Assembly: GCA_963281255.1 (NCBI GenBank)
Contig: OY725490.1
Span: 6,510,001 to 6,574,000, forward strand
Length of the DNA stretch: 64,000 bases
From: Aphrocallistes beatrix
Lineage: Eukaryota > Porifera > Hexactinellida > Sceptrulophora > Aphrocallistidae
Direction of reading: 5' to 3'
In this document: positions 27,072 through 59,967 of the stretch, piece after piece
How the letters are laid out: each line of letters starts with the position of its first letter
Numbering within the stretch: position 1 is the stretch's first letter
Made by a program: the position numbers and the translations under genes
Notes under the pieces: model-generated
The model's database searches: none
The model's input: the letters and a program-made list of their open reading frames with translations, nothing else
What the model was told of the DNA's origin: nothing

Positions 27072-27128
27072 TTCTATGGCTTTAGTTTTTACTTGGATTA
27101 TGAATTTATCATTTGATAAATAAACCGG

Positions 27129-38587: not shown

Positions 38588-39811
38588 TCAAAAAATAGCA
38601 ATAGCTTTAGAACCACTCCGGAAGGATACGACTACACATCCATTATTTCCCATATCAACACCAAATGGTAGTTCGAGGTCGAATTCAGTGAAACAGATTG
38701 AGTGGATGAGATCTCCTTCTGGGGATAAGATGAAGAGAGTGCTCTTATCTCGATCTGAAATAAGAAAATTGTTATGTATATCAAAGTTGAAATGATAGAT
38801 ACAATCAGAGAATACGGGAAGCTTTGGAATAGTCTTCAGGAGTTGATTCGTTTTAGAGAATAGTTTAATAACACCAGTCATCTCTACAATGTAGATTGTG
38901 TTATTTCTCACTCGCAAACAATAAGAATCATCTATTGCGTTATTCGCCATAATTCTATGGAATTTAAGATTCAAATCAAACACAGAAATACGCTTATTAT
39001 CATGCTCAACAACAAATAACTCTTCTTTATCAATATCGATACCGTATGGACCATCCAGTTGACCAAGTTTCGATCCTTTAGAAGCGTCTGATTTCTTAAC
39101 AAAGGTAAAGGTATCCAAGCACCATTTGGATAAGTGTCTAGTGTAATCTGAAATGTAAATAAAATCATCACACATTACAATCTCCCATGGCGTATTGAGA
39201 ACTTCTCTACCAAACTCAGACAAATAATCTCCTTCCACACTCCAAACTTGAATACAAGATTTATTTATATCTCCAATGAATATTCTTTGATTATTATTAT
39301 CAATTACAACACCTCTAGGATTAGTGAACTCTCCTTTTCCTTTTCCAAATGTACCAAACACTTTAACAGGTTTAGAGAGTTGAGTGTAATTCCTGACTAA
39401 CACATTGTGAGTCTCTTTACTCAAAGATCCAAATTTGGAAATCTTCAATTCCAAATCATTTCTGTCACAAACGAATCGAACTTGTGGATAATGGAGTTTC
39501 TTTTCTTTTTCAGTAATTTCATTACTTAAATCAGCAATTCCCTCTTTCAGTGTTGTTCTCGCTGTGTTTATTTTCAACGTAGCTAATAACTGTTCCATCT
39601 CAGTTCGTTCTCTCTTCATCTCTTCTAAAGATTGGATACAGCTAGCTCGTGTTTTGTTGAACTCTTCTTCCCATTGGTTCAGCTGTCTCAGGAGAACTTC
39701 TCTCCTCTCATTCACCTTCTCTACCAGAGAATGGAATAGTTCTTCTATTTCTCTCCTCACTCTCTTGAACACATCATCTCTCTCTGGGAAAGAAGATAAG
39801 CGTGTGGCCAT
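38588..39811 (-). CDS. NHL-propeller protein, array member 1
   Basis: 407 residues. A coiled coil (about 14-105, VFKRVRREIEELFHSL... to EKEKKLHYP) precedes NHL repeats from about 148 to the end. The first repeat is canonical (FGTFGKGKGEFTNPRGVVID...RIFI..INKSCIQVW). The plan is that of TRIM-NHL proteins without RING or B-box. It is nearly identical to the other six members except at spot residues in each blade (here IN, DD and HD at the shared variable sites). It shares the KGSKLGQL...GIDIDKEELF block with member 7 and not with its neighbours, so it is a mosaic. One residue is missing in the second blade turn (TRHLSKW). Propellers bind RNA or protein; the ligand is unknown. An NDUFAF7 pseudogene follows upstream on the same strand. 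Confidence 0.85.
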   Translation of the reverse strand: MATRLSSFPERDDVFKRVRREIEELFHSLVEKVNERREVLLRQLNQWEEEFNKTRASCIQSLEEMKRERTEMEQLLATLKINTARTTLKEGIADLSNEITEKEKKLHYPQVRFVCDRNDLELKISKFGSLSKETHNVLVRNYTQLSKPVKVFGTFGKGKGEFTNPRGVVIDNNNQRIFIGDINKSCIQVWSVEGDYLSEFGREVLNTPWEIVMCDDFIYISDYTRHLSKWCLDTFTFVKKSDASKGSKLGQLDGPYGIDIDKEELFVVEHDNKRISVFDLNLKFHRIMANNAIDDSYCLRVRNNTIYIVEMTGVIKLFSKTNQLLKTIPKLPVFSDCIYHFNFDIHNNFLISDRDKSTLFILSPEGDLIHSICFTEFDLELPFGVDMGNNGCVVVSFRSGSKAIAIF

Positions 39812-39975
39812 CTAGATTTTAGGCTAGTCGATAAAAAAAACTGAAACTACACAAAAACAAAAAGTTAATAAGATTTAATGTTTCAAGAATACTAAGAGTT
39901 ACAATAGAAATTGATTCTTGACTATAAGATGGTTAATAGTAGATTAGAAAATAGTTTCAATTTCAATTTTTTTTT

Positions 39976-41365
39976 TCAGGAATCGAATCCATAAGGAATA
40001 GCTCCACCTTTGGGAGACATAGCGAGGACTTTGAACCTCTCACCCATATACTGTGGACTGGTTAGAAACTCGTAACTCTTAACAAGAGAATTCCTCTCAT
40101 CCATGCTACAACCTTGTAACACCTTTCCAATCCTCTCTCGAATCCCCATTCTGTGTAGAAACCAAGGTTGAAACCCCTTCAACCAAATACCATTTTAACC
40201 GAATAATGGTCAGACCAAATAATTTGGTCAACCGAATAATTTGGTCAACCGAATAATTTGGTCAACCGAATAATTTGATCAACCAAATAATACTTGATTA
40301 TATGTTTGCATAAATGTTTATATAAATATTTATACAAAAATATATTCAAGTATAAGTAAGCCAATTATATTTATTTGTGTTCGGACCACTTCATGTAAGA
40401 ACATGCGATTATTGTGTTGGGAAAGCATGCAAATTATTCGGTTGACCAAATTATTCGGTTGACCAAATTATTTGGTTGACCAAATTATTCGGTTGACCAA
40501 ATTATTTGGTTCTCAACCGAATACCAAATAATGATATTTGGTTATAAACCAAATATCAATTATTTGCAAATAATATTTGGTTAAACCGAATAATCAATTA
40601 TTCGGTTTCAACCCTGGTAGAAACGCATTCTGACTTACTGGACCATGGACTGAGGTATTTCGATTGGTTATTTTCTTAATCAGATCGAAATTAACGTCAG
40701 CTGTCAAATCAGCTGTTCCAGGTTCCAACAGAACATTCCATTCTTTGTGGTTTCGGAATCCTCTCAGAGTGAAATCATTTAGTTCCAAATATCCATAGTC
40801 AATTATCAAACAAGAACCAGTTCCTTTCTCACTCAACAGGTCACTGATACATTCTGTTATCATCAAGCAATGTGGATTCACTTCAGCTTTCTCGGTTTCG
40901 CTATTTTGAAAGAATTCAGCATAAGCTCCTTGAGAAGTAGTTCTGTGGCTGGGAATGATGGAACGAAGTTTATTTCCATTCTTCTCCTCAGTGTCGATTA
41001 GAATTTCTTTCCATTTTTGCTCTGATTTGATGAACTGGTGGATTGGTAGTGCATCAAAGAATTCGTTGGCGATGAAGTAGGATGGCATTCGAGGAATATC
41101 CTTCACAGAGCTGTACCAGTGTATCGGAACTCCGTTCGATGAAATACCGGATTGTAAGGAGAGGGAAGGTTTGGAGAGATTCTCACTCTCACAAAGACTT
41201 ACAAACTGAACCTTTAGGAAATGTGGACTATTCTCAATCAAATTCACACAGAAAACTCAGTCTTCACTTTCAATTGAGTCAGTATTCTAAGAATATCTTT
41301 CGTAAGTGTTCCATTCCCTGGACCTAGCTCTACTACCTGTGCATCATGTGGTTTGCCCTGCCTCG
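39976..41365 (-). pseudogene. NDUFAF7: NDUFAF7-like pseudogene A
   Basis: It corresponds to roughly residues 100-410 of the intact copies and ends in the full GFDS tail. Three lesions are visible. The N-terminal third is missing, because homology stops at 41365, just before the TRP-flank module. A 1-base deletion at 41250/41251 (CACACA|GAAAAC) brings an immediate stop. A 454-bp hAT MITE sits at 40163-40616. The rest is nearly identical to the intact copies, so inactivation looks recent. Confidence 0.9.
40163..40616. mobile_element. hAT MITE inserted in NDUFAF7 pseudogene A
   Basis: The ends CAAGGTTGAAACC and (inverted) CAGGGTTGAAACC are flanked by an exact 8-bp duplication GTAGAAAC (40155-40162 and 40617-40624). 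The same position in copies B, C and D reads GTAGAAAC once, confirming the insertion. The interior is a long hairpin of tandem ~20-bp AACCGAATAATTTGGTC units on one arm and their inverted forms on the other. Confidence 0.95.
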
Positions 41366-41372
41366 AAACGGT

Positions 41373-41660
41373 CTTCTAAATGAGTTCATATTTTCCCTGT
41401 GAGTTTAAAAAGTGAAGATTGCTGTCGTAAGGAATATTATATGGTTCATTCCTTTCACACGGACACCAAACTTTAGGAATTATTATCCAAGCGTGTGGTC
41501 CTAAGAGTGCAATACCTAATTTATTTATTGAGTCTATAAACCATTTTTTAATACAGAAGAGCCCGTCTCCCTCCCCTCACCCTCACCTCGGGTTGTGTGC
41601 CTATATTTTCTAACTTCTAATGTACTTATAATTCAATTTCAGTGAGGTGTGCGATTCTGA
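41373..41660. repeat. TRP 5'-flank module, copy 2
   Basis: Copy of the sequence just upstream of the TRP gene, here joined to the truncated NDUFAF7 pseudogene at 41366-41372. It marks a tandem-duplication junction. Confidence 0.75.
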
Positions 41661-41978
41661 ACAATTTCAAGAATACTCACATACTCCACTCCAACCTAGA
41701 TATGGTCATGTTTAAGTAAAATAAAATATACACAAATATGACGATAATAGAAATATACCAAATATTGAAAAGTCGCATGCGCACTCGACTTTTCAACACC
41801 TCAATATACATGTAGTAAAATAGAGCAAGTCAATCCAAATGCAAAATCTCAAATTAGAGAGTCGATAGCCTATAATTACCAAAAATGAATTAGAGGACAG
41901 ATAGAGAAATGTCCTATCACAGAATACTAAGGTCTTACTAAATAGAGTTCACAACAAAGGTTTCGCACTGAAATACTA

Positions 41979-43210
41979 TCAAAAAGTAGCAATAGCTTTA
42001 GAACCACTCTGGAAGGATACCACTATACATCCATCATTTCCTATAGCAATACCAAATGGTAGTTCGAGGTCAAATTCAGTGAAACAGATTGAGTGAATGA
42101 GTTCTCCTTCTGGGGACAAGATGAAGAGAGTGTTTTTATCTCGATCTGAAATAAGAAAATTGTTATGTATATCAAAGTTGAAATGATAAATATAATCAGA
42201 GAATATTGGAAGTTTTGGAATAGTCTACAGGAGTTGAACTGTTTTAGAGAATAGTTTAATAACACCAGTCATCTCTACAATGTAGATTGTGTTATTTCTC
42301 ACTCGCAAACAATAAGAAGCAGCTATTGCTTTATCAGCCATAATTCTTTTGAATTCAAGATTCAAATCAAACACAGAAATACGTTTATTATAAAACTCAG
42401 CTACGAATAATTCTTCTCCATCGATATCCAAACCTTTGGGGCAATTCAACAGACCAGGTGCAGAACCTTGAGAAGTGTTCGATTTCTTTACAAAAGTAAA
42501 CTATTCAAGCACCATTTAGATAAGAAGTGTGCACTGTAATCAGAAATGTAAATACAATTATCACACAATACAATCTGCCATGGCTCATTGAGGATACCTC
42601 CACCAAACTCAGACAAATACTCTCCTTCCATACTCCAAACTTGAATACGAGAATTAAGCATATCAGCAATGAATATTCTTTGATTATTATTATCAATCAC
42701 AACACCTCTAGGATTTGTGAACTCTCCTTTTCCTTTCCCAAATGTACCAAACACTTTCGCAGGTTTAGAGAGTTGAGTGTAATTCCTGACTAACACATTG
42801 TCAGTCTCTTTACTCAAAGATCCGAATTTGGAAATCTTCAATTCTAAACCATTTCTATCACAAACAAATTGGAATGTTGGATAAAGGAGTTTCTGTTCTT
42901 TCTCACTAATGACAGTATTTAAGTCAGCAATTCCCTTTTCTATTGAGGTTCTAGCTTGATTGATTTTCAACGTAGCTAAAAACTGTTCCATCTCAGTTCG
43001 TTCTCTCTTAATCTCTTCTAAAGATTGGATGCAGCTAGCTCGTGTTCTGTTGAACTCTTCTTCCCATTGGTTCAGCTGTCTCAGGAGAACTTCTCTCCTC
43101 TCATTCACCTTCTCTATCAGAGAATGGAATAGCTCTTCTATTTCTCTCCTCACTCTCTGGAACACATTCTCTCTATCGAGATCAGGAATTTCGACTAAGC
43201 GTGTAGCCAT
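41979..43210 (-). pseudogene. NHL-propeller protein, array member 2 (broken)
   Basis: Full-length relative of the array genes, with N-terminal type LVEIPDLDRENVFQR as in member 5. A 1-base deletion after KWCLN (near 42500) shifts the frame into TAA. In the following frame a Lys codon is TAG at about 42223-42225 (CTG TAG ACT where relatives have CTG AAG ACT). The remainder down to the TGA at 41979-41981 is otherwise preserved. Its blade spot residues are ML, YSA, FY, AA and M. Confidence 0.9.
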
Positions 43211-43477
43211 CTAGAATTTTAACTGAAATTACAGATTAGAATCAGAATGAATGAGAGCTAGATTATTATAATATTATTTTTGCGTAGCATTCTTAAATTC
43301 CAGCGAAGGAACGGTATAATCCCAGAAATCTAGATACCTAATTTCTGGGACAGGGCGGGGAATTACAGACAAAATGTTCAGATAATCGAGGTTGTGTTAT
43401 AAGTATCAAATTGAGTTAAATAAACTCACAAACAAGAAATTCCGAGTCATTTATATCCAATTGATTTCATAGCCTAG

Positions 43478-43532
43478 GCGACAAAAACGACTATTTTGTA
43501 ATGGAGGTACAAAATAGCCCTTTTTTGTCGAC
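43478..43532. repeat. Short hairpin
   Basis: GCGACAAAAACGACTATTTT plus GTA is mirrored after a 7-base loop by TACAAAATAGCCCTTTTTTG plus TCGAC. It is probably a tiny MITE or a decayed element end. Confidence 0.65.
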
Positions 43533-43663
43533 GATAAAACCCGTTTTTAATTTTAGGATCGCGGTCTCTCACTCTCGCTACTAAATATCTATCGCCTTGC
43601 AAAACTCTCCTTTGAAGTTGTTCAAAGTTCAATAATCTCAATTCCACAAAAAGAACGATCTTA

Positions 43664-43930
43664 ATCTAAATGAATTCATATTTTCCCTGTAAGTTGAAAA
43701 GTGGAGACTGTCGTAGTAAGGAATACTATGTGGCTAACATTTCTCTCACAAGGACGTCGAACTTTAGGAATTATTAGCCAAGCGTGTGGCTCCAAGAGGG
43801 TCAGACCTAATTTGTGCATTGAGTCTATAAACTATTTCATAATCCAGTGGGGTTATCCGTCAATAGTACTCCGGATTCAATGCCTATATCTTCTAATTTC
43901 TAATAAACTTAATCCGATTTTAGTGAGACC
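43664..43930. repeat. TRP 5'-flank module, copy 3
   Basis: Third copy of the module seen at 38038-38310, upstream (minus strand sense) of nothing, running into the 3' flank of NHL member 3. A palindrome (CCATGACCTACTTAATA / TTAAGTAGGCCATGG) follows at about 43933-43964. Confidence 0.7.
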
Positions 43931-44250
43931 ATGACCTACTTAATATTTATTAAGTAGGCCATGGTGAGACATGGGATCCCGAATAATTTCAAGAAAATTC
44001 TCACATACTCTAAAGCAACCCTCTAGATACGGCCGTGTTTAAGCAAAATAAAATATAAACAAATATGACGAGAATATAAATATAGCAAAATAGAGCAAGT
44101 CAATCCAAATGCAAAATCTCAAATTAGAGCAGTCGATAGCATATAATTACCAAAAAGGATTTAGAGGAGAGATAGAGAAAAGTCCTCCCACAGAATACTA
44201 AGATCTTACTAAATAGAGTTCACAACAAAGTTCTTCGTACAGAAATACTA

Positions 44251-45477
44251 TTAAAAAATAGCAATAGCTTTAGAACCACTCTGGAAGGATACCACTATAC
44301 ATCCGTTCTTTCCTATAGCAATACCAAATGGTTCTTTGAGGTCGAATTCAGTGAAACAGATTGAGTGAATGAGATCTCCTTCTGGGGACAAGATGAAGAG
44401 AGTGTTCTTATCTCGATCGGAAATATGGAAATTGTTAAGAATATCAAAGTTGAAATGATAGATATAATTGGAGAATACTGAAAGCTTAGGAATAGTCTTC
44501 AGGAGTTGATCTGTTTTTGAGAATAGTTTTATAACACCAGTCTCCTCTACAATGTAGATTGTGTTATTTCTCACTCGCAAACAATAAGATTGCTCTATTA
44601 CGTTATTTGCCATAATTCTTTTGAATTCAAGATTCAAATCATAAACAGAAATACGTTTATTACCATATTCAACAACAAATAATTCTTCTCCATCGATATC
44701 TAGACCTGATGGCTGATTCAACTGACCAGGTGCAGAATCGCGAAAAGTGTTCGATTTTTTCACAAGAGTACAAGTATTCAAGCACCACATAGAAATAAAA
44801 TGTCCTGATAAGTCAGAAAAGTAAATACATTTATCATTTAATACACCCTCCCATGGCCAACTCAGAATACCACTGCCAAACTCAAACAAATACTCTCCTT
44901 TCATAGTCCAGGCTTGAATAGGAGAATTGGACATGCTAGTAATGAATATTCTTTCATTATTATTATCAATTACAACTCCTCTAGGATTTGTGAACTCTAC
45001 TTTTCCTTTTCCAAATTTACCAAACACTTTCACAGGTTTAGAGAGTTTAGTGCAATTCCTGACTAACACATTTTCAGTCTCTTCACTCAAAGACCCAAAT
45101 TTTGTAATATTCAATTCAAAATCATTTCTGCCACAAATAAATCGAACTTTTGGAAAATGGAGTTTCTTTTCTTTCTCACTAATTTCATTACTTAAATCAG
45201 CAATTCCTGTCTCTAGTGTTGTTCTCGCTGTGTTTATTTTCAACGTAGCTAATAACTGTTCCATCTCAGTTCGTTCTCTCTTCATCTCTTCTAAAGATTG
45301 GATACAGCTAGCTCGTGTTCTGTTGAACTCTTCTTCCAATTTGCTCAGCTGTGTCAGGAGAACTTCTCTCCTCTCATTCACCTTCTCTATCAGAGAATAG
45401 AATATCTCGTCAATCTCTCTCCTCACTCTCTTGAACACATCATCTCTCTCTGGGGAAGAAGATAAGCGTGTGGCCAT
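44251..45477 (-). CDS. NHL-propeller protein, array member 3
   Basis: 408 residues with the same coiled coil plus NHL plan. It is the most divergent in the first two blades (TSMSNSPIQAW, SWPWEGVLNDKC, SDLSGHFISMW), while blades 3-6 match member 4 almost exactly (YGNKRISVYDLN, NNVIEQ versus NNVIEH). This is again a conversion-type mosaic. Spot residues are MS, LSG, YG, EQ and E. The start MATRLSSSPERDDVFKR is shared with members 4, 6 and 7. The 3' flank from about 43944 matches that of member 6. Confidence 0.85.
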   Translation of the reverse strand: MATRLSSSPERDDVFKRVRREIDEIFYSLIEKVNERREVLLTQLSKLEEEFNRTRASCIQSLEEMKRERTEMEQLLATLKINTARTTLETGIADLSNEISEKEKKLHFPKVRFICGRNDFELNITKFGSLSEETENVLVRNCTKLSKPVKVFGKFGKGKVEFTNPRGVVIDNNNERIFITSMSNSPIQAWTMKGEYLFEFGSGILSWPWEGVLNDKCIYFSDLSGHFISMWCLNTCTLVKKSNTFRDSAPGQLNQPSGLDIDGEELFVVEYGNKRISVYDLNLEFKRIMANNVIEQSYCLRVRNNTIYIVEETGVIKLFSKTDQLLKTIPKLSVFSNYIYHFNFDILNNFHISDRDKNTLFILSPEGDLIHSICFTEFDLKEPFGIAIGKNGCIVVSFQSGSKAIAIF

Positions 45478-45642
45478 CTAGATTTTAGACTAGTTGATAA
45501 AAAACGGAACTATACAAAACAAAAACGAAAGTTAATAAGATTCAATGTTTCAACAGTGATAAGGATATAAAGAGTTACCATAGAAATTGATTTGTTACTA
45601 TAAGATGGTTAAATTAGAAAATAGCTTCAATTTCAATATTTT

Positions 45643-45980
45643 TCAGGAATTGAATCCATAAGGAATAGCTCCACCTTTGGGAGACATAGCGAGGACTTTG
45701 AACCTCTCACCCATATACTGTGGACTGGTTAGAAACTCGTAACTCTTAACAAGAGAATTCCTTTCATCCATGCTACAACCTTGTAACACCTTACCAATCC
45801 TCTCTCGAATCCCCATTCTGTGTAGAAACGCATTCTGACTTACTGGACCATGGACTGAGGTATTTTGATTGGTTACTTTCTTAATCAGATCGAATTTCCG
45901 TCAGCTGTCAAATCAGCTGTTCAAGGTTCCAACAGAACATTCCATTCTTTGTGGTTTCGGATTCCTCTGACTGAAATCGA
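45643..45980 (-). pseudogene. NDUFAF7: NDUFAF7-like 3' fragment B
   Basis: Only the last ~110 codons remain, ending with the GFNS-like tail. A 1-base deletion lies at about 45896 (GAATTTCCG versus GAAATTAACG), and similarity is lost at about 45980. It sits 166 bp upstream of NHL member 3, as pseudogene A does relative to member 1. Confidence 0.88.
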
Positions 45981-46460
45981 TATACTGAAACTAAAATATA
46001 GACATAACTGATATGAATGGCGGGAGTTTCGTCGCTGATATCTTTTCGAAATGATGGATTTTTCCCAGTTTCTAAAACCTCTTATAAATATTATTCTCCT
46101 AAATCCTCACTTTCACTCTCCCATTCATTGCAACAAATTCAGTATTCCCTAATTTCTAATCAAATATAATTCAATTTCAGTGAGGCAAGCGATTTGAACA
46201 ATTTTAAGAAAATTATCACATACTCCACTCCAACCCTCTAGATACGATCATGTCTAAGTAAAGTAAAATATACATAAATTTGACGAGTATAGAAATATAG
46301 CAAAATAGAGCAAATCAATCCAAATGCAAAATTTCAAATTAGAGAGTTGATAGCCTATAATTACCAAAAAGGATTTAGGACAGATAGAGAATGCCAAACT
46401 ACAAAATACTAAGGTCTTACTAAATAGAGTTCACAACAAAGGTTTCGCACTGAAATACTA

Positions 46461-47687
46461 TCAAAAAGTAGCAATAGGTTTAGAGCCACTCCAGAAGGAT
46501 ACAACTATACATCCATCATTTCCTATAGCAATACCAAATGGTTCTTCGAGGTCGAATTCAGTAAAACAGATTGAGTGAATGAGATTTCCTTCTGGAGATA
46601 AGATGAAGAGAGTGTTTTTACCTAGATCTGAAATAAGAAAATTGTTATAAATATCAAAGTTAAAATGATAGATAGAATCAGAGAAGACTGAAAGCTTTGA
46701 AATAGTCTTCAGGAGTTGATCTGTTTTTGAGAACAGTTTGATAACACCAGTCCTCTCTACAATGTAGATTGTATTATTTCTCACTCGCAAACAATAAGAA
46801 TGCTCTATTACGTTATTTGCCATAATTCTTTTGAATTCAAGATTCAAATCATAAACAGAAATACGTTTATTACCATATTCAACAACAAATAATTCTTCTC
46901 CATCGATATCTAGACCTGATGGCTGATTCAACTGACCAGGTGCAGAATCGCGAGAAGTATTCGATTTTTTCACAAGAGCAAAAGTATTCAAGCACCATTT
47001 AGATAAGAAGTGTCCGCTGACATTAGAAATGTAAATAAAAATATCACACAGTACAATCTCCCATGGGCCTTTTAGAATATCTCTACCAAACTCAGACAAA
47101 TATTCTCCTTCCATAATCCAAACTTGAATACGAGAATTAGAATAGTCAGCAATGAGTATTCTTTGATTATTATTATCGATTACAACACCCCTAGGATTTG
47201 TGAACTCTCCTTTTCTTTCCCCAAATTTACCAAACACTTTCTCAGGTTTAGAGAGTTTAGTGTAATTCCTGACTAACACATTGTCAGTCTCTTTACTCAA
47301 AGATCCAAATTTAGAAATCTTCAATTCCAAATCATTTCTATCACAAACGAATTGAACTTGTGGATAGTGGAGTTTCTTTTCTTTTTCAGTAATTTCATTA
47401 CTAAGTTCAACAATTCCCTTTTCCAGTGTTGTTCTCGCTGTGTTTATTTTCAACGTAGCTAAAAACTGTTCCATCTCAGTTCGTTCTCTCTTCATCTCTT
47501 CTAAAGATTGGATACAGCTAGCTCGTGTTCTGTTGAACTCTTCTTCCCATTGGTTCAGCTGTCTTATGAGATCTTCTCTCCTCTCATTCACCTTCTCTAT
47601 CAGAGAATGGAATATCTCGTCAATTTCTCTCCTCACTCTCTTGAACACATCATCTCTCTCTGGGGAAGAAGATAAGCGTGTGGCCAT
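46461..47687 (-). CDS. NHL-propeller protein, array member 4
   Basis: 408 residues, intact. Coiled coil about 14-105; NHL repeats from about 148. Spot residues are YS (first blade), VSG, YG, EH, R, DS and LG. Members 3 and 4 share their central blades; the first blade instead resembles members 5-6. No NDUFAF7 copy adjoins it; the upstream spacer carries a MITE (47818-47972). As in all members, the ATG sits in a conserved CTAGATGGCCACACGC context and no TATA box was seen. Confidence 0.85.
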   Translation of the reverse strand: MATRLSSSPERDDVFKRVRREIDEIFHSLIEKVNERREDLIRQLNQWEEEFNRTRASCIQSLEEMKRERTEMEQFLATLKINTARTTLEKGIVELSNEITEKEKKLHYPQVQFVCDRNDLELKISKFGSLSKETDNVLVRNYTKLSKPEKVFGKFGERKGEFTNPRGVVIDNNNQRILIADYSNSRIQVWIMEGEYLSEFGRDILKGPWEIVLCDIFIYISNVSGHFLSKWCLNTFALVKKSNTSRDSAPGQLNQPSGLDIDGEELFVVEYGNKRISVYDLNLEFKRIMANNVIEHSYCLRVRNNTIYIVERTGVIKLFSKTDQLLKTISKLSVFSDSIYHFNFDIYNNFLISDLGKNTLFILSPEGNLIHSICFTEFDLEEPFGIAIGNDGCIVVSFWSGSKPIATF

Positions 47688-47817
47688 CTAGATTTTAAGG
47701 CTAGTTGATGAAAAACTGGAACTATGCGAAAACAAAAATGAAATTAAATAAGATTTAATGTTTTAATTAATGTTGTATGAGAATATAAATAGTTATTATA
47801 GAAATTGATTCGTTACT

Positions 47818-47972
47818 CAGCGCCGACGCCACAGTTTTAGAAATGGTCCGGTTTTACCTAACCAACCGGACCACTATTAAAAAGTTGTCCAGTTTACCAT
47901 GACAAACCTGGGGCCACTTTTGAAAAGTGATCCGCTTAAACCGTACCAACCGGACTAGTGGCGCCGGCCAGG
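47818..47972. mobile_element. GGCGCCAC-ended MITE, copy 2
   Basis: Begins CAGCGCCGACGCCACAG and ends CTAGTGGCGCCGGCCAGG. The interior has GGTCCGGTT, ACCAACCGGACCA and GGGGCCACTTTTGAAAAGTG segments related to 20822-20930. No clear target duplication was seen. Confidence 0.6.
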
Positions 47973-48570
47973 CTAAGTTAATCAAATAATAGAGGTTTAA
48001 TTAAGAGACGAGTAAATATGTCAAAAACATTTGGTTCTATACTAATAGTACAGTAATTTCATTCCAAAAGATATCAGCGACGAAACATCCATTAAGAACT
48101 GATATTAATATGTAAATACAATCCCTTTTAATTTAACGATCTCTCACTCTCGCTACTAAATATTGTCGCTCTGCTAAGCTCTCTTTTGAAATTCAGACAT
48201 TAATAAATTACACGAAAACCTGTGGCTCAGGGCCCGTGCCCCCACCTCGGGTTCTGTGCCTATATCTCCTAATTTCTAATCAAAAAAATTTCAGTGTAGC
48301 ATGCGATCTCGAACAATTTTAAGAAAAATATTACATACTTCACTCCAAACCTCTAGATAAGATCGTGTTTAAGTAAAATATACACAAATATGACGAGAAT
48401 AGAAATATAGCAAAATAGAGCAAGTCAATCCAAATGTAAAATCTCAAATTAGAGCAGCTGATAGCCTATAATTACCAAAAAGGATTTAGAGGAGAGAGAA
48501 AAGTCCTACTACAGAATACTAAGGTCTTACTAAATAAAGTTCACAACAAAAGTTTCGTACTGAAATACTA

Positions 48571-49803
48571 TCAAAAAGTAGCAATAGCTTTAGAACCACT
48601 CTGGAATGATACCACTATACATCCATCATTTCCTATAGCAATACCAAATGGTTGTTTGAGGTCAAATTCAGTGAAACAGATTGAGTGAATGAGATCTCCT
48701 TCTGGGGATAAGATGAAGAGAGTGTTTTTACTTAGATCTGAAATAAGGAAATGGTTATGGATACCAAAGTTGAAATGATAGATATAATTGGAGAATACTG
48801 AAAGCTTAGGAATAGTCTTCAGGAATTGATCTGTTTTAGAGAAGAGTTTAATAACACCAGTAATCTCTACAATGTAGATTGTATTATTTCTCACTCGCAA
48901 ACAAAAAGAAGTAGCTATTGCGTTATTAGCCATAATTCTTTTGAATTCAAGATTCAAATCATAAACAGAAATACGTTTATTACCACATTCAACAACAAAT
49001 AATTCTTCTCCATCGATATCTAGACCTGATGGTCTATTCAACTGAGCAGGTGCAGAACCTTTAGCTGTGTTCGATTTATTTATAAAAGTAAAAGTATCCA
49101 AGCACCATTTAGATAAAAAATGTCCAGCGTAATCTGAAATGTAAATTGAATGATAGCACAATACAATCTCCCATGGCCTATTTAGAATATCTCTACCAAA
49201 CTCAGACAAATATTCTCCTTCCATACTCCAAACTTGAATACGAGAATTACAGATATCAGCAATGAATATCCTCTGATTATTATTATCAATCACAACACCT
49301 CTAGGATTAGTGAACTCTCCTTTTCCTTTCCCAAATGTACCAAACACTTCAACAGGTTTAGAGAGCTGAGTGTAATTCCTGACTAACACATTGTCAGTCT
49401 CTTTACTCAAAGATCCGAATTTGGAAATTTTCAACTCCAAACTATTTCTATCATAAACAAATTGGAATGTTGGATAATGGAGTTTCTGTTCTTTCTCACG
49501 AATGACAGCATTTAAGTCAGCAATTCCCTTTTCTATTGAGGTTCTAGCTTGATTCATCTTCAACGTAGCTAAAAACTGTTCCATCTCAGTTCGTTCTCTC
49601 TTAATCTCTTCTAGAGATTGGATACAGCTAGCTTGTGTTCTGTTGAACTCTTCTTCCAATTGATTCAGCTGTGTCAAGAGAACTTCTCTCCTCTCATTCA
49701 CCTTATCTATCAGAGAATGGAATAGCTCTTCTATTTCTCTCCTCACTCTCTGGAACACATCCTCTCCATCAAGACCAGGAATTTCAATTAAGCGTGTAGC
49801 CAT
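48571..49803 (-). CDS. NHL-propeller protein, array member 5
   Basis: 410 residues. The N-terminal coiled coil is of the second type (LIEIPGLDGEDVFQRVRREI, ...NQARTSIEKGIADLNAVI), shared with pseudogene member 2, whereas its propeller is like the others. Spot residues are IC, YAG, CG, AT, I, NY and LS. Head and propeller therefore have different histories. The 5' flank (AAAATTTTAACTGAAATTAC-like) also groups with member 2. Confidence 0.85.
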   Translation of the reverse strand: MATRLIEIPGLDGEDVFQRVRREIEELFHSLIDKVNERREVLLTQLNQLEEEFNRTQASCIQSLEEIKRERTEMEQFLATLKMNQARTSIEKGIADLNAVIREKEQKLHYPTFQFVYDRNSLELKISKFGSLSKETDNVLVRNYTQLSKPVEVFGTFGKGKGEFTNPRGVVIDNNNQRIFIADICNSRIQVWSMEGEYLSEFGRDILNRPWEIVLCYHSIYISDYAGHFLSKWCLDTFTFINKSNTAKGSAPAQLNRPSGLDIDGEELFVVECGNKRISVYDLNLEFKRIMANNAIATSFCLRVRNNTIYIVEITGVIKLFSKTDQFLKTIPKLSVFSNYIYHFNFGIHNHFLISDLSKNTLFILSPEGDLIHSICFTEFDLKQPFGIAIGNDGCIVVSFQSGSKAIATF

Positions 49804-49895
49804 CTAAAATTTTAACTGAAATTACAGATTAGAATCTAAATGAATGAGAGCTAAATTATTATATTTTTTTGCGTAGCATTCTTAAATTCAAGCGA

Positions 49896-50288
49896 AGGAA
49901 TTCTGAGCTTAGACTAAAATATCGACTCATCACGGAATTATGACGTCATTGTCACATTTTTAAAAGTTAAGCAATACAGTTATTCGAGCATAACTCAGCC
50001 ATTATAGGAGATAGAAGGCTCAAATTTTAATAGAATCTATATACTAACATACCTCACATATGATGCAACTATAATCAAAAAATGATGACTCATCACTTTG
50101 TCATGACGTCATCATTACGCATCAAAAATTAATAAATTTGGTGATTTTTCGTCGATATCGATTAACGTATTTAGAGATGTTATTTACCTTATAAATTACT
50201 CAATATGACCCCAGGCGCCCAAAGGACGCCTCCGGCGGACACAAAGTGTCCGCCAGCCGCGCAGCGCAAGCAAGCGAAGTGCGCTTGT
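49896..50288. repeat. Dispersed repeat family with ATGACGTCAT motifs, copy 2
   Basis: Collinear with 21611-21900 but with about 100 extra bases in the middle and an expanded GGCGGACACAAAGTGTCCGCC palindrome near the GC-rich end. It abuts exactly the start of the duplicated block carrying NHL member 6. Confidence 0.65.
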
Positions 50289-50592
50289 ATATATTAAGTA
50301 GGCCATGGTGAGACATGGGATCCCGAATAATTTCAAGAAAATTCTCACATACTCTAAAGCAACCCTCTAGATACGGCCGTGTTTAAGAAAATAAAATATA
50401 AACAAATATGACGAGAATATAAATATAGCAAAATAGAGCAAGTCAATCCAAATGCAAAATCTCAAATTAGAGCAGTCGATAGCCTATAATTATCAAAAAG
50501 GATTTAGAGGACAGATAGAGAAAAGTCCTACCACAGAATACTGAGGTCTTACTAAATAGAATTCACAACAAAGGTTTCGTATTGAAATACTA

Positions 50593-51819
50593 TCAAAAAG
50601 TAGCAATGGGTTTAGAACCACTCTGGAATGATACCACTATACATCCATCATTTCCCATATCAACACCAAATGGTTGTTTGAGGTCGAATTCAGTGAAACA
50701 GATTGAGTGAATGAGATCTCCTTCTGGGGATAAGATGAAGAGAGTGTTTTTACCTCGATCTGAAATAAGGAAATTGTTATGAATATCAAAGTTGAAATGA
50801 TTAATATCTTTAGAGAAGACCGGAAGCTTTGGAATAGTCTTCAGGAGTTGATCTGTTTTAGAGAATAGTTTTATAACACCAGTCTTCTCTACAATGTAGA
50901 TTGTGTTATTTCTCACTCGCAAACAATAAGAACGAGCTATTGCGTTATTTGCCATAATTCTTTTGAATTCAAGATTCAAATCAAACACAGGAATACATTC
51001 ATTACTCAACTCTACAACGAATAATTCGTCTCCATCGATATCTAGACCTGATGGCTGATTCAACTGACCAGGTGCAGGACCATTAGCTGTGTTCGATTTC
51101 TTTATAAAAGTAAAAGTATTCAAGCACCATTTAGATAAGAAGTGTCCATTGAAATCAGAAATATAAATAAAATCACTACACAATACAATCTCCCATGGCC
51201 TATTTAGAATATCTCTTCCAAACTCAGACAAATATTCTCCCTCCACACTCCAAACTTGAATACGAGAATTAGAGACATCAGCAATGAATATTCTTTGATT
51301 ATTATTATCAATTACAACACCTCTAGGATTAGTGAACTCTCCTTTTCCTTCGCCAAATGTACCAAATACTTTCACAGGTTTAGAGAGTTGAGTGTAATTC
51401 CTGACTAACACATTGTCAGTTTCTTTACTAAAAGTTCCAAATTTAGAAATCTTCAATTCCAAATCATTTCTATCACAAACAAATTGAACTTTTGGAAAAT
51501 GGAGTTGCTTTTCTTTTTCAGTAATTTCATTACTTAAATCAGCAATTCCCTTTTTCAGTGTTGCTCTCGCTGTGTATATTTTCAACGTATCTAATAATTG
51601 CTCCATCTCAGTTCGTTCTCTCTTCATCTCTTCTAAAGATTGGAAACAGCTAGCTCGTGTTCTGTTGAAATCTTCTTCCCATTGGTTCAGTTCTGTCAGG
51701 AAAACTTTTCTCCTCTCACTCACCTTCTCTATCAGAGAATCGAATATTTCGTCAATTTCTCTCCTCACTCTCTTGAACACATCATTTCTCTCTGGGGAAG
51801 AAGATAAGCGTGTGGCCAT
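50593..51819 (-). CDS. NHL-propeller protein, array member 6
   Basis: 408 residues. Coiled coil about 14-105; NHL region 148-408. Variable spots, by residue: 182-183 VS, 207 R, 215-217 SDF, 223-224 FN, 271-272 LS, 295-296 AR, 312 K, 337-338 KD, 355-356 RG, 381-382 KQ. Each falls in or beside the turn after the second strand of a blade (IFIAD^, IYISD^, LFVVE^, IYIVE^, FLISD^). The blade-3 turn also has NECIP in place of the NKRIS of most members. It lies 166 bp downstream of the intact NDUFAF7 copy C. Confidence 0.85.
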   Translation of the reverse strand: MATRLSSSPERNDVFKRVRREIDEIFDSLIEKVSERRKVFLTELNQWEEDFNRTRASCFQSLEEMKRERTEMEQLLDTLKIYTARATLKKGIADLSNEITEKEKQLHFPKVQFVCDRNDLELKISKFGTFSKETDNVLVRNYTQLSKPVKVFGTFGEGKGEFTNPRGVVIDNNNQRIFIADVSNSRIQVWSVEGEYLSEFGRDILNRPWEIVLCSDFIYISDFNGHFLSKWCLNTFTFIKKSNTANGPAPGQLNQPSGLDIDGDELFVVELSNECIPVFDLNLEFKRIMANNAIARSYCLRVRNNTIYIVEKTGVIKLFSKTDQLLKTIPKLPVFSKDINHFNFDIHNNFLISDRGKNTLFILSPEGDLIHSICFTEFDLKQPFGVDMGNDGCIVVSFQSGSKPIATF

Positions 51820-51984
51820 CTAGATTTTAGACTAGTCGATAAAAAACACAAAAAATGAAAGTTAATAAGATTTGATTTTTCAATGATGTAAAGAATACTT
51901 ATAGAAATAGATTTGTTACTATAAGATGGTTAAAATAGTAGATTGGAAAATAGTTTAAATTTAAATATTTTTTCAGGAATTGAA

Positions 51985-53205
51985 TCAGTAAGGAATAGCT
52001 CCACCTTTGGGAGACATAGCGAGGACTTTGAACCTCTCACCCATATACTGTGGACTGGTTAGAAACTCGTAACTCTTAACAAGAGAATTCCTTTCATCCA
52101 TGCTACAACCTTGTAACACCTTATCAATCCTCTCTCGAATCCCCATTCTGTGTAGAAACGCATTCTGACTTACTGGACCATGGACTGAGGTATTTCGATT
52201 GGTTACTTTCTTAATCAGATCGAAATTGACGTCAGCTGTCAAATAAGCTGTTCCAGGTTCCAACAGAACATTCCATTCTTTGTGGTTTCGGAATCCTCTC
52301 AGAGTGAAATCATTTAGTTCCAAATATCCATAGTCAATTATCAAACAAGAACCAGCTCCTTTCTCACTCAACAGGTCACTGATACATTCTGTTATCATCA
52401 AGCAATGTGGATTCACTTCAGCTTTCTCGGTTTCGCTATTTTGAAAGAATTCAGCATAAGCTCCTTGAGAAGTAGTTCTGTGGCTGGGAATGATGAAACG
52501 AAGTTTATTTCCATTCTCCTCCTCAGTGTCGATTAGAATTTCTTTCCATTTTTGCTCTGATTTGATGAACTGGTGGATTGGTAGTGCATCAAAGAATTCG
52601 TTGGCGATGAAGTAGGATGGCATTCGAGGAATATCCTTCACAGAGCTGTACCAGTGTATCGGAACTCCGTTCGATGAAATGCCGGATTGTAAGGAGAGGG
52701 AAGGTTTGGAGAGATTCTCACTCTCACAAAGACTTTCAAACTGAACCTTTAGGAAATGTGGACTATTCTCAATCAAATTCACACAAGAAAACTCACTCTT
52801 CACTTTCAATTGAGTCAGTATTCTAAGAATATCTTTGGTAAGTGTTCCGTTCCCTGGACCTAGCTCTACTATCTGTGCATTTTGTGGTTTGCCCTGTCTC
52901 GCCCACTCAGAAACCAACCAAACTCCCACCAACTCTCCGAACACTTGTGTTATCTCAGGAGATGTGATGAAATCTCCCCCGGGACCAATCCCTGGTCTGG
53001 ATGCGTAGTAGCCGTACTGAGGAGTAGACAGCACTTCTTGCATGTAGTCAAATACACTGATTGGACCTGTTGCTTTTATCTTGGTCACGATTTTAGACAG
53101 CATGTTAGGTTTCATAGCATTGTTGTGTGTGAAACGAATTGTTGATTTTCTGAGACAGAATATTTTACAATCATGACGAAAAATGGCTCTCCTAACATTG
53201 AGCAT
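51985..53205 (-). CDS. NDUFAF7: NDUFAF7-like complex I assembly methyltransferase, copy C
   Basis: 406 residues. A basic, Ser/Thr-containing N-terminus (1-30) fits a mitochondrial targeting peptide. The MidA/DUF185 methyltransferase signatures follow: GDFITSPEI (77-85), FGELVGVWL and the SAM-binding IVELGPGNGT (112-121). NDUFAF7 dimethylates an arginine of NDUFS2 early in complex I assembly. Compared with copy D, the stop comes four codons earlier (IPY then TGA, instead of IPYGFDS); otherwise the two are nearly identical. Both appear functional. It was duplicated together with NHL-6 and the receptor tail. Confidence 0.88.
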   Translation of the reverse strand: MLNVRRAIFRHDCKIFCLRKSTIRFTHNNAMKPNMLSKIVTKIKATGPISVFDYMQEVLSTPQYGYYASRPGIGPGGDFITSPEITQVFGELVGVWLVSEWARQGKPQNAQIVELGPGNGTLTKDILRILTQLKVKSEFSCVNLIENSPHFLKVQFESLCESENLSKPSLSLQSGISSNGVPIHWYSSVKDIPRMPSYFIANEFFDALPIHQFIKSEQKWKEILIDTEEENGNKLRFIIPSHRTTSQGAYAEFFQNSETEKAEVNPHCLMITECISDLLSEKGAGSCLIIDYGYLELNDFTLRGFRNHKEWNVLLEPGTAYLTADVNFDLIKKVTNRNTSVHGPVSQNAFLHRMGIRERIDKVLQGCSMDERNSLVKSYEFLTSPQYMGERFKVLAMSPKGGAIPY

Positions 53206-53377
53206 TTTGCTATGATGATACGACCAGCAAAGAAATGAACCAATTTTCTAAAGTAAAATTCTTCAAAGACACTTTTAATAACAGTATTTACATGATTAAA
53301 TACAGATCCAAGGATAACACATGCATATATACATAGATCCACTATTAAGAACTAATGCTACATGTTATAAGGAATAA

Positions 53378-53690
53378 TCAAGTGGAGACAGCTTCATTAT
53401 CTGCTGCAATCTCCTTGATGCTATCATAGACGTTGTTATCAGCATCGATGGGGTACATCTTGGTGTACTTATTTGCATCTGGAGTATCGCATATGGAATC
53501 TCGTGCTGGGCTTGAATCTGAGTTTTCTAACTCATTGAGAGGATCATACGCAGTCACATGTCTCTCTGTTCTCTGGAGACTAACCTCTTTGTAGATCTGT
53601 TTGTTCATTCTCCTTTTCTCTTTCGTTTTCCGTTTTCGTCTGAAAAACCCCCCAACACATCAGTGACAGTATCAATGGGACTGTTGGATG
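53378..53690 (-). pseudogene. Duplicated cytoplasmic tail of the LRR-EGF receptor
   Basis: The last 76 codons (MNKQIYKEVSLQ ... DNEAVST) repeat the C-terminus of the gene at 57468-59912 with two substitutions (PIDADN versus PINAEN). Upstream, the membrane-segment DNA has indels and an in-frame TGA (about 53660), and similarity fades near 53690. No signal or ectodomain is attached, so it is a truncated pseudogene. Confidence 0.88.
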
Positions 53691-54399
53691 AGATATTGAC
53701 CCCTCCCCTAAAAATGACCCCCTCTTAAAGGAACCATGGGTGCTATCATATAATCGAATAGCTTATCAATTTGTGTTTCTTCATTCTCTTAAACACATTC
53801 TCTCTATCATATCATGAATATCAACTACGGGATCCATTCGGGTGTTGAGCATCAATTTCCTGACTAGACCGGTCGAATCAAGATAAAAGCTAAAGTAATG
53901 AATGTCAATCGATATACTGAAACTAAAACATAGACATAACTGATATGGATGGCGGAAGTTTCGTCGCTGATATCTCTACGAAATGATCGATTTTTCTGTT
54001 TGTAAAACCTAATATTTTTCTAATTTGCATATTATCTCACGTATTGCTCTCATAATATTATTCTCTCCAAAATCTTCACTTTCACTCTCCCATTCATTTG
54101 AACAAATTCAGGATTCCCAACAGTTTGTAATTAACAATTTAATTCCAAGAAATATCAGCGACGAAACATCCATTAAGAACTGATATGAATATGTAAATAC
54201 AGTCGCTTTTAATTTAACGATCACGCCCTCTTTCTCGCCACTGAATATCAGTCGCTCTGCTAAGCACTCTTGAAGTTCAGACATTAATAAAAACACGAAA
54301 AGCTGAGGTTCAGGGCCTGTCCCCTCACCCTGGATTCTGTGTCAATATTTCCTAATTTATAATCAAATATAATTCAATTTCAGTGAGGCATGCGATTTC
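53691..54399. other. Duplicated NHL-array spacer
   Basis: Non-coding. It shares segments with other array spacers, for example GATATACTGAAACTAAAA and GTTTCGTCGCTGATATC with 45979-46050, and ATATCAGCGACGAAACATCC with about 48070-48190. Confidence 0.6.
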
Positions 54400-54663
54400 G
54401 AACAATTTTAAGAAAATTATCACATACTCCACTCCAACCCTCTAGATACGGTCATGTTTAAGTAAAGCAAAATATACACAAATATGACGAGAATAGAAAT
54501 ATAGCAAAATAGAGCAAGTCAATGCAAATGGAAAATCTCAAATTAGAGAGTCGATAGCCTATAAATACCAAAAAGGATTTGGGACAGATAGAGAATGTCA
54601 AACTGCAGAATACTAAGGTCTTACTAAATAAAATTCACAAAAAGGTTTCGCACTGAAATACTA

Positions 54664-55896
54664 TTAGAAAATTGCAATAGCTTTAGAACGACTCTGGAAG
54701 GATACCACTATACATCCGTCCTTTCCTATAGCAATACCAAATGGTTCTTTGAGGTCGAATTTAGTGAAACAGATTGAATGAATGAGATCTCCTTCTGGGG
54801 ACAAGATGAAGAGAGTGTTCTTATCTCGATCTGAAATAAGAAAATTGTTAAGAATATCAAAGTTGAAATGATAGATATTTGTATTTTTAGAGAATCCTGG
54901 AAGCTTGGGAATAGTTTTCAGGAGTTGATTTGTTTTAGAGAATAGTTTAATAACACCAGTCATCTCTACAATGTAGATTGTATTATTTCTCACTCGCAAA
55001 CAATAAGAATTAACTATTGCGTTATTCCCCATAATTCTTTTGAATTCAAGATTCAGATCAAACACAGAAATACGTTTATTATCAAACTCAACAACAAATA
55101 ACTCTCCCTTATCAATATCGATACCGCATGGACCATTCAGTTGACCAAGTTTCGATCCCTTAGTAGTGCCAGATTTCTTCACAAGAGTAAAAGTATTCAA
55201 GCGCCATTTAGATAAGAAATGTCCTCTGATATCAGAAATGTAAATTGAATGATCGCACAATACAATCTCCCATGGCCTATTTAGAATATCTCTACCAAAC
55301 TCAGACAAATATTCTCCTTCCATACGCCAAACTTGAATACGGGAATTAATTGCATCAGCAATGAATAGTCTTTGATGATTATTATCGATTACAACACCTC
55401 TAGGATTAGTGAACTCTACTTTTCCTTTTCCAAAGTTACCAAACACTTTCACAGGATTAGAGAGTTTGGTGTAATTCCTGACTAACACTTTGTCAGTCTC
55501 TTTACTCAAAGACCCAAATTTTGTAATATTCAATTCAAAATCATTTCTGCCACAAATAAATCGAACTTTTGGAAAATGGAGTTTCTTTTCTTTCACACTA
55601 ATTTCATTACTTAAATCAGCAATTCCTTTCTCCAGTGTTGTTCTCGCTGTGCTGATTTTCAACGTAGCTAAAAACTGTTCCATCTCAGTTCGTTCTCTCT
55701 TAATCTCTTCTAAAGATTGGATAAAGCTAGCTCGTGTTTTGTTGAACTCTTCTTCCAATTTGCTCAGCTGTGTCAGGAGAACTTCTCTCCTCTCATTCAC
55801 CTTCTCTATCAGAGAATAGAATATCTCGTCAATCTCTCTCCTCACTCTCTTGAACACATCATCTCTCTCTGGGGAAGAAGATAAGCGTGTGGCCAT
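54664..55896 (-). CDS. NHL-propeller protein, array member 7
   Basis: 410 residues. The head is of the SSSPERDDVFKR type; the coiled coil is shared with member 3 (IDEIFYSLIEKV, LSKLEEEF). The propeller shares KGSKLGQL and GIDIDK with member 1. Spot residues are AI, IRG, FD, VN, M, KNTN (two extra residues) and RD. It is the member nearest the intact NDUFAF7-D and receptor genes, so this may be the ancestral position. Confidence 0.85.
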   Translation of the reverse strand: MATRLSSSPERDDVFKRVRREIDEIFYSLIEKVNERREVLLTQLSKLEEEFNKTRASFIQSLEEIKRERTEMEQFLATLKISTARTTLEKGIADLSNEISVKEKKLHFPKVRFICGRNDFELNITKFGSLSKETDKVLVRNYTKLSNPVKVFGNFGKGKVEFTNPRGVVIDNNHQRLFIADAINSRIQVWRMEGEYLSEFGRDILNRPWEIVLCDHSIYISDIRGHFLSKWRLNTFTLVKKSGTTKGSKLGQLNGPCGIDIDKGELFVVEFDNKRISVFDLNLEFKRIMGNNAIVNSYCLRVRNNTIYIVEMTGVIKLFSKTNQLLKTIPKLPGFSKNTNIYHFNFDILNNFLISDRDKNTLFILSPEGDLIHSICFTKFDLKEPFGIAIGKDGCIVVSFQSRSKAIAIF

Positions 55897-56063: not shown

Positions 56064-57296
56064 TCAGGAATCGAATCCATAAGAAATAGCTCCACCTTTG
56101 GGAGACATAGCGAGGACTTTGAACCTCTCACCCATATACTGTGGACTGGTTAGAAACTCGTAACTCTTAACAAGAGAATTCCTCTCATCCATGCTACAAC
56201 CTTGTAACATCTTACCAATCCTCTCTCGAATCCCCATTCTGTGTAGAAACGCATTCTGACTTACTGGACCATGGACTGAGGTAGTTCGATTGGCTACTTT
56301 CTTAATCAGATCGAAATTAACGTCAGCTGTCAAATCAGCTGTTCCAGGTTCCAACAGAACATTCCATTCCTTGTGGTTTCGGAATCCTCTCAGAGTGAAA
56401 TCATTTAGTTCCAAATATCCATAGTCAATTATCAAACAAGAACCAGCTCCTTTCTCACTCAACAGGTCACTGATACATTCTGTTATCATCAAGCAATGTG
56501 GATTCACTTCAGCTTTCTCGGTTTCGCTATTTTGAAAGAATTCAGCATAAGCTCCTTGAGAAGTAGTTCTGTAGCTGGGAATGGTGAAACGAAGTTTATT
56601 TCCATTCTTCTCCTCAGTGTCGATTAGAATTTCTTTCCATTTTTGCTCTGATTTGATGAACTGGTGGATTGGTAGTGCATCAAAGAATTCGTTGGCGATG
56701 AAGTAGGATGGCATTCGAGGAATATCCTTCACAGAGCTGTACCAGTGTATCGGAACTCCGTTCGATGAAATGCCGGATTGTAAGGAGAGGGAAGGTTTGG
56801 AGAGATTCTCACTCTCACAAAGACTTTCAAACTGAACCTTTAGGAAATGTGGACTATTCTCAATCAAATTCACACAAGAAAACTCACTCTTCACTTTCAA
56901 TTGAGTCAGTATTCTAAGAATATCTTTGGTAAGTGTTCCGTTCCCTGGACCTAGCTCTACTATCTGTGCATTTTGTGGTTTGCCCTGTCTCGCCCACTCA
57001 GAAACCAACCAAACTCCCACCAACTCTCCGAACACTTGTGTTATCTCAGGAGATGTGATGAAATCTCCCCCGGGACCAATCCCTGGTCTGGATGCGTAGT
57101 AGCCGTACTGAGGAGTAGACAGCACTTCTTGCATGTAGTCAAATACACTGATTGGACCTGTTGCTTTTATCTTGGTCACGATTTTAGACAGCATGTTAGG
57201 TTTCATAGCATTGTTGTGTGTGAAACGAATTGTTGATTTTCTGAGACAGAATATTTTACAATCATGTCGAAAAATGGCTTTCCTAACATTGAGCAT
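56064..57296 (-). CDS. NDUFAF7: NDUFAF7-like complex I assembly methyltransferase, copy D
   Basis: 410 residues from the chosen ATG at 57296 (MLNVRKAIF), which aligns with copy C. An in-frame ATG at 57362 adds 22 hydrophobic residues, but the matching DNA in copy C differs there by indels, so that part is probably 5' leader. Targeting peptide, GDFITSPEI and ELGPGNGT motifs are as in copy C; the C-terminus is complete (IPYGFDS replaced here by ISYGFDS). With the complete tail and the receptor gene next door, this is the likely parental copy. Confidence 0.9.
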   Translation of the reverse strand: MLNVRKAIFRHDCKIFCLRKSTIRFTHNNAMKPNMLSKIVTKIKATGPISVFDYMQEVLSTPQYGYYASRPGIGPGGDFITSPEITQVFGELVGVWLVSEWARQGKPQNAQIVELGPGNGTLTKDILRILTQLKVKSEFSCVNLIENSPHFLKVQFESLCESENLSKPSLSLQSGISSNGVPIHWYSSVKDIPRMPSYFIANEFFDALPIHQFIKSEQKWKEILIDTEEKNGNKLRFTIPSYRTTSQGAYAEFFQNSETEKAEVNPHCLMITECISDLLSEKGAGSCLIIDYGYLELNDFTLRGFRNHKEWNVLLEPGTADLTADVNFDLIKKVANRTTSVHGPVSQNAFLHRMGIRERIGKMLQGCSMDERNSLVKSYEFLTSPQYMGERFKVLAMSPKGGAISYGFDS

Positions 57297-57467
57297 TTTG
57301 CTATGATGATACGCCAGCAAGAAAATGAACCAAAATGCTAAAGTAAAATTCTTCAAAGACACTTTTAATAACAGTATTTACATGATTAAATACAGATCCA
57401 AGGATAACACATGCATATATACATAGATCCACTATTAAGAACTAATGCTACATGTTATAAGGAATAA

Positions 57468-59912: not shown

Positions 59913-59959
59913 TTTGATGCAAGGTTTAATTTGGCTTAAATTAGTTTGACCAGGTTGAG

Positions 59960-59967
59960 TATTTATA
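59960..59967 (-). promoter_or_regulatory. TATA box of the LRR-EGF gene
   Basis: Exact TATAAATA on the minus strand, its first T 55 bp before the ATG at 59912. Confidence 0.55.

Follow-up and report, generated by a model that had tools for sequence, protein, structure and literature searches.

Why should neighbouring copies of one propeller gene differ most at a ring of residues equivalent to known ligand contacts? The question is raised by a 64,000-nucleotide stretch of the genome of the hexactinellid sponge Aphrocallistes beatrix (assembly GCA_963281255.1, contig OY725490.1, positions 6,510,001 to 6,574,000 of the forward strand; hereafter the window), which holds seven tandem genes for NHL-propeller proteins. 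NHL propellers are best studied in regulators of RNA during development. Here the copies form an array and recombine, and the equivalents of known NHL contacts lie in a ring at which the ratio of nonsynonymous to synonymous rates (dN/dS, omega) exceeds 1. We read the array, with a probability of about 0.58, as an intracellular, adaptor-like NHL family under diversifying selection and recombination that serves as an innate recognition repertoire.

The NHL array and the differences between its copies

The first-pass annotation of this DNA, made from its letters alone, had recognized seven neighbouring paralogues, one of them broken, and this is what the window contains: seven copies in tandem, all on the minus strand, six intact (m1 and m3 to m7) and one, m2, disrupted (Table 1). 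Each is a single open reading frame (ORF), and the intact copies encode 407-410 residues; residues are numbered after m5, which also served for the fold model. The intact proteins have a short N-terminus followed by long helices and a six-bladed NHL propeller. PF01436 (NHL) scored above the Pfam cut-off in all four members scanned (of the six intact), the set to which every Pfam result below refers. In the AlphaFold2 (AF2) model of m5 the helices span residues 13-80 and 84-107, and they probably form a coiled coil through which the protein would dimerise. Foldseek matched the model most closely to the NHL domains of Brat, TRIM2, Thin and TRIM3, with Mei-P26 also matched; the best match, 1q7f, had an E value of 2.5e-14 and a template modelling (TM) score of 0.50 by query and 0.70 by target. 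Pfam detected neither a RING nor a B-box family at E up to 1, and a zinc-motif pattern for an exon encoding either gave 0 matches in the six spacers between copies, so that by this criterion the family is not a TRIM. Pattern searches for the NHL family returned 600 matches in viral contigs and 108 in bacterial and archaeal genomes, none of which was confirmed as a relative.

Compared with m5, the five remaining intact proteins show 77-81% identity. Pooled over the 15 pairs of the six intact copies, the proportion of synonymous differences (pS) is 0.204 and that of nonsynonymous differences (pN) is 0.103, while pairwise dS runs from 0.18 to 0.31; the earlier description of the paralogues as almost identical, even at synonymous sites, was therefore too strong. 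The residue strings and codon pairs quoted with it agree with the sequence when checked by eye, although the motif labels attached to the strings are loose (the copies have, for example, FIGD in m1, FITS in m3 and YISN in m4).

Where do the replacements fall? They had been placed just after the second strand of successive blades, which is right for the b-c turns; the fourth spot of the series (DD/AA/EQ and so on), however, lies in a d-a loop, as do the variable residues 208-209, 247-248, 257 and 339-340, and residue 384 varies at what the model takes to be the start of strand a. In the standard description of propellers, b-c and d-a loops share one face. The same arrangement is given for WD40 propellers in the accessible text of an earlier study (PMC1805685). 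Among the six intact copies pN is highest in the b-c loops (0.239, pN/pS 1.02), followed by the d-a loops (0.163, pN/pS 0.54), the a-b loops (0.144, pN/pS 0.50), the c-d loops (0.068, pN/pS 0.56) and the propeller strands (0.065, pN/pS 0.32). The replacement excess of the b-c and d-a loops taken together was reached by none of 259 circular shifts and none of 5000 permutations. With loop residues only, the top-over-bottom excess was reached by 435 of 10000 permutations and is modest. Whole loops are the weak case, and the contact ring inside them is the strong one.

Selection at the contact ring

The contacts, 20 in total, were taken from the literature on LIN41 and Brat, independently of the variation among the paralogues. 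The part of the LIN41 study available to us names 14 RNA-contacting residues (PMC5908797), and the accessible portions of two further papers name six RNA contacts of Brat; a paper on Mei-P26 speaks of 15, compared with the six Brat contacts used here. The LIN41 letters agreed with the chain at all 14 contacts, and for Brat the numbering was consistent with all nine letters compared. A MAFFT alignment to Brat put blade 2 and part of blade 4 out of place, and each blade was therefore brought into register by hand from its own motif, namely the residue before strand a and the residue after strand b; MAFFT agreed with this anchoring at Brat 800, 875 and 933 and put 829, 847 and 916 opposite gaps. 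All LIN41 and Brat contacts occupy five places per blade: a-2, a-1, P+1 (after the first residue of strand a), b+1 and b+2. They map to 15 positions of the sponge propeller, and five places in six blades make 30 ring positions, which in the model occupy the b-c turns and the entries to strand a, on the predicted counterpart of the RNA-binding face of Brat and LIN41.

At least three different residues among the six intact copies are found at 12 of the 15 contact equivalents, compared with 31 of 260 propeller residues (hypergeometric 3e-10), and at 18 of the 30 ring positions (4e-12, with sites taken as independent). No circular shift of the ring mask (0 of 259) reached the observed mean. Seven ring positions are invariant. 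By place, pN/pS is 2.83 at b+1, 1.98 at b+2, 1.78 at a-1 and 1.00 at a-2. Some ring residues of m2, read by eye, are absent from the other copies.

Is this variation selected? The first-pass annotation had invoked diversifying selection and proposed site-wise dN/dS as the check, and several approaches now bear the idea out. A codon model with fixed site classes gave omega 2.65 at the 15 contacts and 0.38 elsewhere on one tree (omega = 1 rejected, p 7.4e-7). The values were 2.68 and 0.35 on four segment trees with hand-chosen boundaries (p 2.4e-6), so omega stays above 1 at binding-surface sites when the segments have their own trees. For the 30 ring positions omega was 1.70-1.79 (p 5e-4 to 7e-4). 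An 18-position set (a-1, b+1, b+2) reached 2.8-3.1 and is not relied on, because it was picked after the pN/pS of each place had been seen. On each of three topologies M2a was preferred over M1a (p 2e-4 to 5e-4). Finally, without a tree, the ratio of pN at the 15 contacts to pS over all codons is 2.18 (bootstrap 1.55-2.88), and the same ratio for the 30 ring positions is 1.59 (1.14-2.13), each above 1 in all 15 pairs. Elsewhere the gene is under purifying selection, and the proteins are therefore probably in use.

What might the ring bind? In the six intact copies its net charge is -4, -1, -1, +4, +6 and +3, and the hand-anchored equivalents in LIN41 and Brat sum to +5 and +2. A span from -4 to +6 makes a single RNA-backbone mode unlikely and favours protein ligands; a uniform RNA-backbone binder is likewise not favoured. 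This bears on the possibility that the proteins regulate the sponge's own RNAs or proteins and were retuned to different endogenous targets after duplication, a specialisation without an arms race that would resemble the retuning of Brat, Mei-P26 and LIN41 over longer times. The ring does coincide with the residues by which Brat and LIN41 contact RNA, the LIN41 study reports fast evolution of NHL domains at their RNA-binding surface (PMC5908797), and positive selection following duplication would yield the same signal. However, the ring lacks the consistent basic charge that one common mode of RNA binding would call for, and recombination together with a broken copy looks more like a birth-and-death repertoire. 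We consider endogenous targets unlikely, while giving them serious weight.

Recombination and the history of the array

The first-pass annotation had also proposed gene conversion, and there is clear recombination between the NHL copies. None of 2000 permutations gave a homoplasy index as low as that of the actual alignment, an identical run shared by the two copies exceeds the expected length in 13 of 15 pairs (p <0.05, uncorrected), and m3 and m4 have in common a run of 53 identical polymorphic sites. Gene conversion is probably the form that it takes.

Could recombination by itself create the appearance of selection? Weakly constrained loops, homogenising conversion and imported diverged tracts might together mimic hypervariability, with no positive selection at all. 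Site tests are known to yield false positives under conversion, recombination is strong here, and the region of codons 245-266 exists as two diverged sequence types. Against this, omega at the ring remains above 1 on the four segment trees, ring pN exceeds whole-gene pS in every pair, and pooled divergence in the 3' flank is just 0.098 over about 230 bases, compared with a ring pN of 0.32-0.44. Moreover, relaxed constraint alone is unable to raise omega above 1. An origin without positive selection is accordingly the least probable of the explanations weighed here.

The array also preserves traces of its assembly. Four of the seven NHL copies have just upstream a Methyltransf_28 gene, which we take to be NDUFAF7-like, or a piece of one: intact at m7 and m6, damaged at m1 and reduced to a relic at m3 (Table 1). 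The adjoining NHL genes of m6 and m7 show 57.5 synonymous differences in 266 sites, or about 0.22, which leaves an approximately twelve-fold gap to the pS of their NDUFAF7-like neighbours at a distance of less than 200 bases. Two accounts would fit: the NDUFAF7-like gene is homogenised by conversion that leaves the NHL gene untouched, or selection has retained diverged NHL sequence. The damaged gene upstream of m1 is interrupted by a piece of about 450 bases (40171-40617) with 17-bp tandem repeats in opposite orientations toward its two ends, perhaps a small mobile element.

Table 1. Coordinates in the window of the NHL paralogues, the variable ring stretches of m5 and the NDUFAF7-like sequences. 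Residues are listed in the order m1, m3-m7.
Feature	Position	Strand	Details
NHL paralogue m1	38588..39811	-	intact, 407 aa
NHL paralogue m2	41979..43210	-	broken: one frameshift and one in-frame stop
NHL paralogue m3	44251..45477	-	intact, 408 aa
NHL paralogue m4	46461..47687	-	intact, 408 aa
NHL paralogue m5	48571..49803	-	intact, 410 aa
NHL paralogue m6	50593..51819	-	intact, 408 aa
NHL paralogue m7	54664..55896	-	intact, 410 aa
m5 codons 184-185, b-c loop of blade 1	49249..49254	-	IN/MS/YS/IC/VS/AI; equivalents of LIN41 Arg581 and Ser582, Brat Asn800
m5 codon 209, before strand a of blade 2	49177..49179	-	T/W/G/R/R/R; equivalent of LIN41 Arg611, Brat Tyr829
m5 codons 225-226, b-c loop of blade 2	49126..49131	-	YT/LS/VS/YA/FN/IR; equivalents of LIN41 Lys628 and Asp629, Brat Arg847
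m5 codon 257, before strand a of blade 3	49033..49035	-	G/Q/Q/R/Q/G; equivalent of LIN41 Tyr658
m5 codons 273-274, b-c loop of blade 3	48982..48987	-	HD/YG/YG/CG/LS/FD; 274 equivalent to LIN41 Arg676
m5 codons 297-298, before strand a of blade 4	48910..48915	-	DD/EQ/EH/AT/AR/VN; 298 equivalent to Brat Phe916
m5 codon 314, b-c loop of blade 4	48862..48864	-	M/E/R/I/K/M; equivalent of LIN41 Phe722, Brat Asn933
m5 codons 339-340, before strand a of blade 5	48784..48789	-	DC/NY/DS/NY/KD/KN; 340 equivalent to LIN41 Arg752
m5 codons 357-358, b-c loop of blade 5	48730..48735	-	RD/RD/LG/LS/RG/RD; 358 equivalent to LIN41 Arg770
Methyltransf_28 gene copy A, presumably NDUFAF7-like	56064..57377	-	upstream of m7, within the duplicated unit
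Methyltransf_28 gene copy B, presumably NDUFAF7-like	51985..53247	-	upstream of m6; pS 0.018 to copy A
Presumed NDUFAF7-like copy C	39979..41366	-	truncated and interrupted, upstream of m1
Presumed NDUFAF7-like C-terminal relic	45646..45974	-	upstream of m3

Elsewhere in the window lie other duplicated genes. Four single-ORF genes, ankyrin-repeat by eye and on both strands (3193-3972 and 26271-27131, minus; 8303-9121 and 23374-24186, plus), share 93-98% identity through most of their coding sequence. Comparison of four pairs by blastn gave no homology within 600 bases to the left or right, and in three of the four genes the match stops at the stop codon, so that the homology is of coding sequence only. 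An inverted pair of genes, membrane transporters by eye (12176-13756, minus; 15660-17204, plus), is 97-98% identical in two coding blocks with a diverged middle stretch between them and has no flank homology within 600 bases. The window also holds an ankyrin ion-channel gene and, at 57468-59981 on the minus strand, a single-ORF gene for a protein with leucine-rich repeats and calcium-binding EGF domains, with an apparent membrane segment and tail tyrosines in YxxL/I-like settings, both seen by eye.

Known systems and the reading of the array

TRIM-NHL proteins (LIN41/TRIM71, Brat, Mei-P26, TRIM2/3) share the six-bladed NHL propeller, and their contacts map to the variable ring. In the sponge family, by contrast, no RING or B-box was found, and the ring, which in TRIM71 is invariant between mammal and zebrafish, is the most variable part. 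In 261 residues shown for both TRIM71 chains in HMMER output and paired by hand, none of the 30 ring positions differs, compared with 28 of the 231 remaining positions (Fisher p 0.054, suggestive by itself). Pairs of the sponge paralogues differ at 12-20 of 30 ring positions and at 10-22% of positions elsewhere, against 12% elsewhere for the TRIM71 pair.

A closer parallel in geometry is found in another propeller class. In HET-D and HET-E of the fungus Podospora anserina, according to the accessible text, the d-a loop and the b-c turn of each WD40 repeat carry two selected codons apiece, on the interaction face, and exchange proceeds within a gene family (HNWD) that includes broken members (PMC1805685). 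These are NACHT-WD40 proteins in which highly conserved repeats are exchanged (PMC1805685), whereas the blades of the sponge NHL proteins are unlike one another: 11 of 15 blade pairs of m5 align over at least nine residues at 21-44% identity, the other four over three to seven residues. The m5 propeller holds no direct DNA repeats of at least 25 bases, and with such dissimilar blades exchange between them is not visible there.

Might the array, like HET-D/E, encode self/non-self (allorecognition) or fusion-compatibility genes? Selection falls on the same pair of loops here as in the fungal proteins, as far as the available text describes them (PMC1805685), and the sponge copies recombine. However, Pfam found no NACHT, WD40, B30.2 or cell-death domain in the four members scanned. 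Moreover, neither a signal peptide nor a membrane segment is apparent by eye, so cell-surface recognition is unlikely, and a reading of the proteins as cell-surface receptors was set aside for the same reason. Allorecognition is, on balance, improbable.

Among animals, the finTRIM, btr and hltr families of fish are expanded TRIM genes with positive selection in a C-terminal binding domain, with the difference that these are RING-B-box-coiled coil proteins and the selected loops belong to B30.2 and not NHL (PMC3137616, in the part available). Coral tachylectin-2 is an animal beta-propeller under positive selection; it is a five-bladed lectin in which, in the text accessible, no selected site matched a sugar-binding residue (PMC2880987), while in the sponge family the contact equivalents themselves are selected. 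Among the hits listed in a literature search that lacked most subscription papers and all bioRxiv preprints, none reported NHL paralogues with a hypervariable ring.

How, then, could the sponge array work as an innate recognition repertoire? Duplication, for at least four copies together with the NDUFAF7-like neighbour, would have built the array, and recombination, probably gene conversion, would reshuffle its copies. Selection would alter residues of the ligand face at the strand-a entry and b-c turn of most blades, such that the copies may each have a ligand of their own or one that changes fast, which would most likely be a microbial, viral or symbiont protein or nucleic acid. By analogy with the systems above, immunity against microbes or viruses would be the likeliest driver.

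Several observations weigh against the repertoire reading. In the four members scanned, Pfam turned up no known immune effector domain. The codon models were run with custom Python code on six intact, recombining sequences, a small data set, and in M2a only sites 184, 225, 226 and 257 have a posterior >0.9 (naive empirical Bayes). The contact equivalents 165 and 166 are invariant, 300 differs in one copy only, and over the whole P+1 class pN/pS is 0.40. As whole loops, the d-a loops have pN/pS 0.54, and the top loops 0.66 compared with 0.55 for the bottom loops; only the contact ring stands out. The structural frame is approximate as well: the m5 model has a mean predicted local distance difference test (pLDDT) score of 63.4 and a predicted TM score (pTM) of 0.53 and is weak in parts of blades 2-3, a model of the propeller alone (pLDDT 45) was not used, and several strands in blades 2, 3 and 6 were assigned by hand from the repeat pattern. 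The hypervariable ring on a binding face that the first-pass annotation had foreseen holds up, more sharply for the contact ring than for whole loops; 13 propeller sites with at least three residues lie outside the 30 ring positions, including 217, 218, 266 and 349 in a-b loops on the opposite face.

A bolder form of the repertoire reading can be put forward tentatively, with the odds slightly against it: the NHL ligand ring may be a germline recognition repertoire that converged independently on the geometry of the hypervariable WD40 propellers of fungal incompatibility receptors, with residues free to vary ahead of strand a and at the b-c turn of most blades, and with its frame exchanged between the copies by gene conversion. 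If this is true, the NHL domain would join the scaffolds of variable recognition, in parallel to fungal WD40 and fish B30.2, and the 15-30 ring codons would be expected to be polymorphic between individuals and to decide binding specificity.

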